Shown in pieces: positions 10,352 through 59,312 of a stretch of 64,000 nucleotides of DNA (the stretch's first letter is position 1; each line of letters begins with the position of its first letter). Origin of the DNA: Desmodesmus armatus. Its lineage: Eukaryota; Chlorophyta; Chlorophyceae; Sphaeropleales; Scenedesmaceae. The position numbers and the translations under genes were made by a program. The stretch covers positions 466,001-530,000 of the forward strand of contig VIIQ02000028.1 in NCBI GenBank assembly GCA_007449985.2, read 5' to 3'. The notes under the pieces are model-generated. The model was given only the letters and a program-made list of their open reading frames with translations, was not told the origin of the DNA and did no database searches.

Positions 10352-12211
10352 TCCTCGGAGAAGGATTCCGAAGGATCCTTCGGAGTGACTGGGGTGGCTG
10401 AAAAGAGTAACAAAAGCAATGACCAGATTTGTCATCAGCCACCGGCCAACGACTGCTGGATCAAAACGTCCTAGGAACGGGTCGAAGTAAGTTCAGGCAT
10501 CCAGTCAACGCCTGGGAACCTGTGGAGACGCAAACGAGGGACGCTACGGGCACAGGGCTGTGTCATGTTCGACCTGTTCAACCCAACGAGGGACGATACG
10601 ACATTTCTGCTATGTCACGAGTGCCTCAGTTATGCTAGAATATCTATTGCTCCGTCAAATACACATGTAATGCCTTTGCCTCGGCTGAACTCAGGGCTGT
10701 AGCTAAGGGAGACGCGGGCCTATACAAAAAGTACTGTACACCAAGCAAGGACAGTAAAACGAATTATCCACAATCCATGATACCGAAGTAATTACTCCAC
10801 AAGTTGCAGTGCCGACTGACGCCAGGAAAGAGTGCACAGGTGCGGCGTATACGGTTTTCTCTTCAACACAGTCACTGTTGTGCCCTGAAGTTTCCAGCAA
10901 CGTGGGACAGCATATACGTGTGCTGTGGTGAGGGTGGGCCACATCAGCATCAACAGAAATTCCCAAGCCTCTTGCATGTGCCCCTTACACCGGTAAGGTG
11001 CAATCGCCCTGCTCGAATCCAAACAAGCAACCCCAGCAGCAATCATCATGGGATCCCCTGTGTGCAGTGCTGACCAATGTTTGCTTGCAAAGCATTCTTA
11101 TGCAGCCTATGAGGTTGCCTGTTCAAACCTCCAACTGGCTGGCACCTGCTTGTGACCTTCCATGTACCTGTTGTGTAAGCGAAGGGTTTTGGCTCAACCC
11201 TACACCCTCCGAACATGTGTGCTGCATGCACATAGCTCCAATATCGACTTGTTACATTGACAGTGCTGCACATCACACTGCACAGCACAGACATTAACAG
11301 CTGCAGACCCAAGTGCTGCTAGTAGCTTGTGGCGAACCCATCAGTTTTGCGCCACTGTGAGGAATCACTTCTGGCACATCCATTGAACACAGCTGCTGCA
11401 CAGCTTGCTTCAGCTGCCCCGCGGGCAATGTCGGATGGCGCGGGCAGTGTCTTACTCTTGATCTGACAGCGGCACAGCGACAATCGCACGTCGAATTTCA
11501 TAATCCAGTTCGCTCAAAAGCAGGCTCGTGGCTCGTGGCCTGGATACCCTACCAGCTAACCTTGGACCCACCACCAAGGTCACTGCCAAGCTCGCCCCAG
11601 CGTTTGTGCTGAGCTTGACGGGGATATCCAGCACTCAGTACCAGAGATGAAGCTGTGTCTTGTTGCTCTGCTAAGATCCGCTTGTTGCCCCCACCCACCT
11701 TCAGTTTGCTTGCACTTGCCCCTGCCAGAGCACCACCCACGCTCCAGCTGCTTGAGGGGGGGGGGGATCACAAAGTCAAATCCTAACCCCTGTCATCACC
11801 TTAGAGAGCCGATGAGCTGCCAATGACCTTTGTGCACATTCCAGCCGAAGGTCCATTGGCATTACTGCTGCAGTTGCTACGTAGCAACTCTAAGCATTAA
11901 TGCTGCAATTGAACTGAACTGATCAGAAACCTCTGGACTCCGAGATACCCATGGGGGGGAGCGTGAGGGGGTTCACCCCCTTACAGTAGCAACAATCCAA
12001 ATAACAGCAGCTGTAAGGGGGTGAACCCCCTCACAGTAGCAACAATCCAAATAATAGCAGCTGCATCGGCATCAAAGCAACGCCAGGGGGAGGGGGACAC
12101 CCCCCTCCCCCCTGCAAGGGGATCCCTCAGGGGAGCAAACACCTCTGCTCGAAGCATTACCTGCACCACTTCGACGGGGTCACCGCGGACGGGCACGGTA
12201 GCGCCGATTTA
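10352..12211. mobile_element. Element A, long copy (1860 bp)
   Basis: Its ends are defined by comparison with a second copy at 58440-59188. Positions 10352-10846 match the left part of that copy and 11899-12211 match its right part, about 99% identical outside small indels. The middle (10847-11898, 1052 bp) is present only here. The left end carries a perfect 18 bp palindrome at 10367-10384 (tccgaaggatccttcgga). The right part contains a roughly 60 bp tandem duplication near 11965-12055 that the short copy lacks, with runs such as gggggttcaccccc. No protein frame of note is present, there are no terminal inverted repeats, and I see no clear target duplication. Class unknown. It ends 172 bp before the start codon of the next gene, so it may affect that promoter. 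Confidence 0.85.
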
Positions 12212-57283: not shown

Positions 57284-59312
57284 CTATGCAGGCCTGTGCA
57301 GGCTCCTGCGAGCGGTTGCTATCAAGTGCTGCCGCTCTTTGACCCAAGGCGTGTTTGGTGCGCCCTTTGCCCACTGGCTACTGTACAAGTTCTGTGCATT
57401 CTGTGCCGTCGTGTTGTACGGGAAAGGGGCGCCCCAGAATGTGGGTGCCATTATGCACAGCTTCATCTGCCGTGCACGCTGATAGACTGTCGCATTCGTC
57501 CACGCCGCAACCGATATCGCATGCGCTGAGGTGTCACGGTCAAGGCCCAGCACGTCTGCAATGGCCTGCGTCCAAACTGCTGGCCCAGTATGCGCGTGAA
57601 CCATGTGCTCATACGTGCAGTCAAAGCCGTCTTTGACACTCTCAAGCGCTATCTGCATGGCAGACCTCAGCACAGGATGGCCTGCAGCAGCAGCGATGGT
57701 CCACTGGCAGACGTGTGCATCATTCTCAAGGGCAGCCACCAGGCTGCAGTCATCCCATGTCAGATTGAAGTACTGCAGTGGGCCTGCTGCTTGCCAGGTT
57801 GAGGCGTTGATCACAAACCTTGGGTCTTGAGGACTGGTGACTCGCGGTGGGAGCCAGTCTTGCACTGGGGTCAGGCACTTGGTGTCGACGTCTGCGTAAA
57901 TGCCGCCATGCGCGTACAGCACTGCTAGGCGCCAGAAGTCTGCCCGCATCACAGCCAGGGGGTATGCTGCATATGTGGCATACACATGCTGGCCATAGAA
58001 GCTGCTGATGAAGGCTGCTGCTTCTGCATCGTCTGTGATTGTGACGTTCATGCTGGGGTTCAGGTCCGCCCAGGACTTGTGCAGCTCTGCAGCCCGCCTG
58101 CTGAGGTGCTTGGAGCGGCTGGTTTGGTACAGACGAGACAGCGGAATGGACGCTGTCGACGTGTTGAAACCATCGGCAAGCTGGACCCAATCTGCTGCTA
58201 GTGCGGCCCTGCGGTTCACACCCCAAAACGCAAGGCAGGTGACGTGACATGAGGTGTGCAGAAAGCAGGGATCAAAGCTGTCAGTACCATACATCTGCAT
58301 GGGCAGTGCCGAAGCGCCTGTGACAACAGACACAGCTGACTTGACAGGCTGTTGGGCTCCAGTGGTCGACCCACCTGGCATGCGCACCAAGCTCTTGTTG
58401 CATGCGTTCCCGACATTGTGGAAGCGGTCTGTGATGGTGTCCTCGGAGAAGGATTCCGAAGGATCCTTCGGAGTGACTGGGGTGGCTGAAAAGAGTAACA
58501 AAACCAATGACCAGATTTGTCATCAGGCAACGGCCAACAACTGCTGGATCAAAACGTCCTAGGAACGGGTCGAAGTAAGTTCAGGCATCCAGTCAACGCC
58601 TGGGAACCTGTGGAGACGCAAACGAGGGACGCTACGGGCACAGGGCTGTGTCATGTTCGACCCAACGAGGGACGATACGACATTTCTGCTATGTCACGAG
58701 TGCCTCAGTTATGCTAGAATATCTATTGCTCCGTCAAATACACATGTAATGCCTTTGCCTCGGCTGAACTCAGGGCTGTAGCTAAGGGAGACGCGGGCCT
58801 ATACAAAAAGTACTGTACACCAAGCAAGGACAGTAAAACGAATTAACCACAATCCACGATACCGAAGTAATTACTCCACAAGTTGCAGTGCCGACTGACG
58901 CCAGGAAAGAGTGCACAGGTGCGGCAATGCTGCAATTGAACTGAACTGATCAGAAACCCCTGGACTCCAAGATACCCATGGGGGGGAGCGTGAGGGGGTT
59001 CACCCCCTCATAGTAGCAACAATCCAAATAATAGCAGCTGCATCGGCATCAAAGCAACGCCAGGGGGAGGGGGACACCCCCCTCCCCCCTGCAAGGGGAT
59101 CCCTCAGGGGAGCAAACACCTCTGCTCGAAGCATTACCTGCACCACTTCGACGGGGTCACCGCGGACGGGCACGGTAGCGCCGATTTAAAAGAGCGCTGT
59201 GGAAGCTGACAACGCTGGCAACGGCAACAGCAGCAAGCAGAACTACCACCCTCCTGTCCCAACGAGCAGGGGAGAGCCAGGGCTGCGTGGATGCCTTTTT
59301 TCTATACTTCAT
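57284..59312 (-). CDS. Type II membrane glycosyltransferase, GT32 (OCH1-like), split by element A
   Basis: Proposed exons: 59312-59174 and 58485-57284, giving 446 residues. The first exon encodes a short basic cytosolic end (MKYRKKASTQPW) and a signal anchor (VVVLLAAVAVASVVSF). The second exon holds the catalytic domain: IPLSRLYQTSRS, then MRADFWRLAVLYAHGGIYADVDT with the DXD metal/sugar-nucleotide motif (DVD at about 245-247), and VCQWTIAAAAGHPVL. These are GT32 (Gly_transf_sug) hallmarks; OCH1-type enzymes add sugars to glycans in the Golgi. The substrate is unknown. Between anchor and catalytic domain lies element A (58440-59188). Its ends provide the acceptor (ttactcttttcag) and donor (GTGCCC or six bases on, GTCCGC), leaving about 20-22 element-coded residues (PTPVTPKDPSESFSED) in frame. 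Without that splice, the element's stops would separate the two parts and the gene would be broken. Confidence 0.82.
58440..59188. mobile_element. Element A, short copy (749 bp) inside the GT32 gene
   Basis: It matches 10352-10846 and 11899-12211 of the long copy, so it is an internal-deletion derivative lacking 1052 bp. Differences from the long copy are about eight substitutions, a 9 bp gap, and a single instead of doubled ~60 bp block. The 18 bp palindrome is at 58455-58472. The ends are exact to about one base. Removing the element with one base of end ambiguity joins the GT32 anchor and catalytic frames, showing that it landed in, or beside, coding sequence. High identity between copies suggests recent activity. 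Confidence 0.88.

Follow-up and report, generated by a model that had tools for sequence, protein, structure and literature searches.

Structure of the GT32 gene and site of insertion

The stretch of DNA analysed here (hereafter the window, 64,000 nucleotides of a contig of Desmodesmus armatus) contains a glycosyltransferase (GT32) gene on the reverse strand, the first exon of which is divided by a repeat. The parts of the gene, and the point at which its translation would end if the repeat were left unspliced, are as follows.

59188..59312, (-) strand: first part of GT32 exon 1, with the ATG, a short N-terminus and a membrane anchor (open frame; the first exon of the paralogue L055 also bears an anchor)
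58375..58440, (-) strand: second part of GT32 exon 1, past the element, 58440 being the target A (the joined flanks give an open frame to the donor at 58374)
58209..58374, (-) strand: conserved phase-2 intron of 166 bp, CAG|GTGGGT ... CAG|G (position and phase as in L055; homologous ORFs)
57284..58208, (-) strand: GT32 catalytic exon through the stop codon (PF04488 on the protein joined without the element)
59157..59159, (-) strand: in-frame TGA reached when the element is unspliced, giving a 51-aa product (translation of the real frame)

When the element is omitted, exon 1 (from the ATG at 59312 to the donor at 58374) and the catalytic exon together encode an open protein of 371 aa, which matches PF04488 with 58 bits (cut-off 23) and has the GT32 DXD motif in the sequence YADVDTKC. 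The paralogue L055 is 51% identical over the catalytic part, and its phase-2 intron ends CAG|G-GCT-GCC ahead of RAALAARW. Of the GT32 homologues bearing an organism name, the closest belongs to Scenedesmus sp. NREL 46B-D3 (58% identity, 65% query coverage). Among the 11 homologues fetched of 88 matches, six have ORFs that extend upstream of the intron point, and these read C-R-A-A-L (P0001, P0002, P0005, P0007 and P0011) or S-R-A-A-V (P0008), as expected for a TGCAG|G acceptor that is read through; three others start downstream of that point, and P0006 and P0017 are without the pattern. Exon 1 itself aligns weakly with exon 1 of L055 (a score reached by 11 of 1000 shuffles), and its post-anchor part taken alone does not align significantly (81 of 1000 shuffles).

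Since there is one open frame without the element, and since the next intron is common to the paralogue and homologues, the element interrupts coding exon 1. As read from this gene model, the insertion site is the stem-coding part of the exon, between the anchor and the catalytic domain. A previous reading of this DNA from its sequence only had likewise placed a repeat copy there, and our analysis bears this out with a length of 747 bp instead of 749 bp. An empty allele is absent from this assembly, in which the only matches are the two flanks themselves.

The inserted element and its family

Two copies of the element lie in the window, and the one in the GT32 gene has a palindrome close to one end.

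58441..59187, (-) strand as the gene-sense reading: non-autonomous Helitron copy of subfamily A (termini in common with 14 5' ends of A type and 54 3' ends; Rep and helicase-like ORFs in a relative of 8,196 bp)
58455..58472, (-) strand: palindrome TCCGAAGGATCCTTCGGA near the terminus (hairpin set 14 bases in from the element end)
10352..12211, (-) strand: long copy of this element, which has some 1.1 kb of additional internal sequence (sequence comparison)

The GT32 copy has its AAATCGG end at 59187 and its CCGAGG end at 58441, and its termini run from AAATCGGCGCTACC... to ...TTCTCCGAGG; at least one terminal A of the 747 bp could belong to the host. That it is a true repeat is clear from at least 93 matching pieces in the genome of 115.8 Mb and 831 contigs. 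The counts of A-type 5' ends and of 3' ends in the genome allow up to 3 mismatches, and a further A-type 5' end, on C47, has a short 5' deletion; reversed control patterns of the ends gave no matches in the genome search. A second subfamily, B, starts with AAACGGCGCTCCTGCG and has 24 5' ends among the fetched loci. These loci hold 38 5' ends in all, of which 32 were paired with a 3' end, the pairing being approximate in arrays.

Of 52 3' ends examined (54 exist), 49 are followed by A, a second base, never G, and another A, and no flank duplication longer than a single A was seen in the element ends compared. The flanks of the copy at L019 match an unoccupied repeat stretch next to L011. Subfamily-B copies form head-to-tail arrays at L024, L034, L039 and L072, where they abut directly or are separated by short spacers. 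The hairpin at the A-type end has a 7-bp stem, and equally good folding was obtained in 21 of 200 shuffles; the other three terminal pieces of the element fold no better than shuffles.

Relationship to Helitrons

A relative of 8,196 bp on C153 (L063) has the same ends as the GT32 copy and matches the profiles Helitron_like_N with 36.7 bits (cut-off 28.9) and AAA_19 with 26.1 (cut-off 25.1), as well as AAA_30 with 24.6, which is below the cut-off of 27. Its Rep and helicase-like domains lie in separate ORFs, which run against the gene-sense direction of the element. Judged by these ends, shared with a relative that bears Rep and helicase, together with the head-to-tail copies, the repeat in the GT32 gene is a non-autonomous Helitron.

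The assignment to a described Helitron type is less straightforward. Helitron1 is defined by 5'-TC and CTRR-3' ends and by insertion between A and T (PMC3627910, PMC5148889). In our element the RepHel strand reads T-CCTCGG... and ...CCGATTT, and a CTRR end occurs on neither strand. Helitron2 is defined by an asymmetric terminal inverted repeat, and some of its members have RepHel in opposite orientation (PMC3627910). Such a repeat was not found when the first 60 bases of the element were compared with the last 80 (ungapped, up to 1 mismatch); the best match lay 36 bases inside and was 8 bases long with a single mismatch. Short non-autonomous Helitrons are also described from another green alga, Chlamydomonas reinhardtii, as Helitron-1N1_CRe (657 bp) and 1N2_CRe (673 bp) (PMC3627910). 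The present element resembles C. reinhardtii Helitron2 in having no target duplication and in its relation to a Rep-helicase element, but it differs in its termini and in the asymmetric inverted repeat, which we did not find, and the target in C. reinhardtii comes after TTTT (PMC3627910).

Other Helitron Rep open frames are present at L065 on C135 (1104 codons) and L066 on C189 (1692 codons), in fetched stretches from which the ends of this family are absent. Of the three Rep-bearing places found besides L063, none had the ends, in stretches of 8-9 kb and with up to 7 mismatches allowed.

Age of the insertion

The closest sibling of the GT32 copy is that on C135, from which it differs by 1 substitution and 3 indel events (10 columns) across about 737 bp. 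At each of these differences it is the GT32 copy that carries the base or bases of the next or other copies, and thus it has no private change. The lack of any private change against its closest sibling shows that the insertion is very young. Because it is so recent, the intact GT32 frame downstream is uninformative about function since the insertion, and we dropped that frame as evidence.

Candidate splice sites in the element

The element brings with it several sequences that could act as splice sites.

59159..59160, (-) strand: candidate donor GT, GCG|GTGACC, without G at +5 (in the real frame when paired with acceptor 58486 or 58477)
59172..59173, (-) strand: donor GT proposed previously, ACC|GTGCCC (out of the real frame with the acceptor at 58486)
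58486..58498, (-) strand: TTACTCTTTTCAG, a strong candidate acceptor (found in the three closest copies)
58477..58484, (-) strand: second candidate acceptor CACCCCAG (CCCAG or CCCCAG in nearly every 3' end compared)

Three GTs precede the in-frame TGA, namely ACC|GTGCCC at 59173, CCC|GTCCGC at 59167 and GCG|GTGACC at 59160. Twelve pairs of sites within the element keep the real frame, and with the acceptors at 58486 or 58477 only the donor at 59160 does so; it would leave a remnant of 72 or 63 bases respectively, stop-free in all frames. CAG|GTAATG at 59137 was rejected as a donor, being past the in-frame TGA and not of the form GTRNG.

The sequence-only reading had located correctly the GTs at 59173-59172 and 59167-59166, the strong acceptor ending at 58486, the 61 element bases that would be retained, and the same terminal splice sites in the long copy at 10352-12211. 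Its proposal that 59173/58486 and 59167/58486 keep the frame does not hold in the real frame, and we rejected both junctions, which fit solely if the conserved 166-bp intron (58374-58209) were retained and translated. They had seemed to be in frame because the anchor was joined to another frame, one that continues open out of the element and across that intron. The suggestion that the element adds coding residues survives to the extent that a frame-keeping pair does exist and would supply 24 or 21 codons, by junctions other than those proposed. Similarly, the idea that the element carries its own splice sites is upheld for the strong acceptor, which is older than the insertion as it is found in the three closest copies, but not for the donor, there being none of the GTRNG type.

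For comparison we collected 12 predicted native donors from the chaperonin gene L085 (8 donors), the GT32 gene of the window, its paralogue L055, a SIR2 gene and a PITH gene. All 12 are GTRNG and each scores at least 6 of 9, whereas the three reachable donors in the element score 5 each and none is GTRNG; the native set is small (n=12) and was placed by eye at fitting GTs. The exon boundaries in L085 were set by eye by reference to CCT proteins, and one of its donors (AGT|GTAGGT) has another GT nearby. Donors were scored on a 9-position consensus, which like the acceptor score is a rule of thumb. Hexamer enrichment was uninformative for learning native donors.

GTRNG makes up 1,259 of the 7,963 GTs in the window (15.8%) and none of the 60 on the gene-sense strand of the element, and the same is true of the near-identical sibling (L002). 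Shuffles led us to expect about 7 in the element, and none of 300 was equally low. Of other A copies, five are similarly poor in such sites (P 0.02 or less) and three are not, while 2 of 20 B copies fall below 0.05. This scarcity, which was spotted after the fact, may reflect shared ancestry of the copies.

Frame-keeping splice sites and chance

The candidate pairs were set against 2000 dinucleotide shuffles of the element and 2000 random segments of the window. Any frame-keeping pair was found in 53% of the shuffles and 69% of the random segments, a chance rate so high that the mere existence of such pairs was dropped as evidence. The score of the best pair was equalled in 3.9% of shuffles and 4.9% of random segments, and frame-compatible pairs whose acceptor was as strong occurred in 1.5% and 0.9%, respectively. 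From these rates the acceptor is good but the keeping of the frame is unremarkable. A remnant that is frame-neutral and open in all frames arose in 44% of shuffled A ends and 26% of shuffled B ends, and both subfamilies were frame-neutral and open with one shared acceptor in 21% of shuffled ends. Since shuffled ends so often have them, a remnant length divisible by three and open remnant frames were likewise dropped as evidence. When the paired copies were placed at the GT32 site, a frame-compatible pair was available in 32 of 32 in sense and 31 of 32 in reverse, these copies being related and not independent.

Other copies and their neighbouring genes

The flanks of other copies were scanned with Pfam at E up to 0.01, using 91 ORFs of at least 110 aa out of 161 eligible (N-runs and simple repeats dropped), and 10 Pfam families were matched. 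The copy on C7 (L008) has SIR2 on one side and biotin_lipoyl on the other, belonging to divergent genes, and that on C545 (L006) has a PITH match downstream. The start codons of the SIR2-family and PITH-domain genes lie 51 bp and 120 bp, respectively, downstream of these sense A copies, which are therefore upstream of the start codon and outside the coding sequence. Further flank matches were to Syndetin_C, WD40 and pullulanase, and those to DUF2807 and Ku_PK_bind were below their cut-offs. Among the 32 copies with both flanks, and for Pfam-detectable ORFs of at least 110 aa, interruption of coding sequence by another copy was not shown. Several other joins, among them those at L016, L017, L022, L071 and L074, are spanned by frames of at least 100 codons in either orientation; those of the join-crossing frames that were scanned had no Pfam match, and they could still be coding.

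Disruption or splicing

We lean towards the view that this is a young and mainly disruptive Helitron insertion from which splicing might rescue a minority of transcripts. The Rep-helicase of a larger relative presumably mobilised the non-autonomous Helitron, which inserted very recently into the stem region of GT32 exon 1 with a target duplication of at most one A. Translation would run into the element and end at the TGA at 59159, giving the 51-aa product. In a minority of transcripts, splicing from GCG|GTGACC (59160) to CAG|C (58486) or CAG|T (58477) may rescue the gene, and the GT32 so made would have 24 or 21 additional stem codons. The stop at 59159, and reachable donors that are off-consensus for this genome, are what suggest that the effect is mainly disruptive. 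Counting against this are the good score of the best pair and the strength of its acceptor relative to both null sets, and also the frame-compatible pairs offered by all the related copies in sense and by all but one in reverse. Off-consensus donors can, moreover, be used in nature.

It is conceivable, though rather unlikely, that the element is already a new intron, efficiently spliced from 59160 to 58486 or 58477 with the frame kept and the stem extended by 24 or 21 residues. The frame-compatible pair, the strong acceptor and a remnant that is stop-free in three frames are consistent with this, and in the stem the extra residues may be tolerated. However, the donor GTGACC is without a G at +5, GTRNG donors are entirely absent from the element, and a frame-neutral, all-open remnant is as common in shuffled A ends as noted above. 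Very unlikely, in our view, is an altered 5' part of the transcript, which would start within the element or join an upstream donor to an element acceptor, and so give an anchorless enzyme from the internal ATG of MQQELGAHAR. Such a donor would be CAT|GTGGGT (59402), which is GTRNG, scores 7 of 9 and has no other GTRNG following it down to 58387, and the two sense subfamily-A copies just upstream of the SIR2 and PITH start codons fit with this; but an earlier, out-of-frame ATG lies ahead of the internal start, and three genes are too few for a bias.

An introner family, with termini selected to serve as splice sites and with many of its copies being introns, we regard as highly improbable. In its favour, GCGGTG close to the 5' end and CAG|T close to the 3' end recur in A and B, where the remnants would be 63 and 75 bases, each a multiple of three. 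Against it, both ends must in any case be conserved for transposition, about a fifth of shuffled ends have the same property, and GT32 is the sole interrupted gene shown for the 32 copies with both flanks, the SIR2 and PITH copies being upstream of start codons. The intron-forming role for the family put forward previously, for which other copies in coding exons were sought in this limited test, thus finds no further case. There is only a slim chance that the termini of this green-algal Helitron family serve also as a frame-neutral pair of splice sites, leaving 63 or 75 bases open in all three frames, so that a new exon insertion can be spliced immediately; the GT32 copy would then be an introner of rolling-circle type, seen while still free of private mutations.

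Comparison with known systems

Maize Ds insertions in exons reportedly become introns by means of splice sites near the Ds ends, as described by Giroux et al. in 1994. The Helitron in the GT32 gene is similar to Ds as a transposon in an exon that supplies splice sites near its ends, here candidate ones; it differs in that Ds moves by cut-and-paste and that splicing is reported for Ds, while here it is proposed from sequence. Intron gain through transposon insertion is already known in general (reviewed in PMC3443670). Introners are mobile elements carrying splice sites and are defined by many similar annotated introns, and one family in Aureococcus adds 12 bp to the transcript, providing a precedent for the gain of coding residues (PMC9860276). 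The present element is like introners in being mobile and carrying splice sites, and unlike them in being a single exon insertion with weak donors, for which splicing is a candidate only. In the titles and abstract openings of the literature on introners, Helitrons and intron gain we found no Helitron acting as an introner, and the word 'helitron' does not occur in the main text of the introner paper (PMC9860276).

What is new here is a concrete and very recent Helitron insertion in a green alga, for which the gene model has been corrected. Should the element be left unspliced, the case is one of ordinary, recent gene disruption by a Helitron, and a caution that frame-keeping splice sites easily arise by chance. 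If it is spliced, it would be a very young transposon-born intron and its gain could be tested almost as it happens, with a near-identical sibling on C135 and an empty site that the joined flanks predict as CTCTTTTACACCATC.
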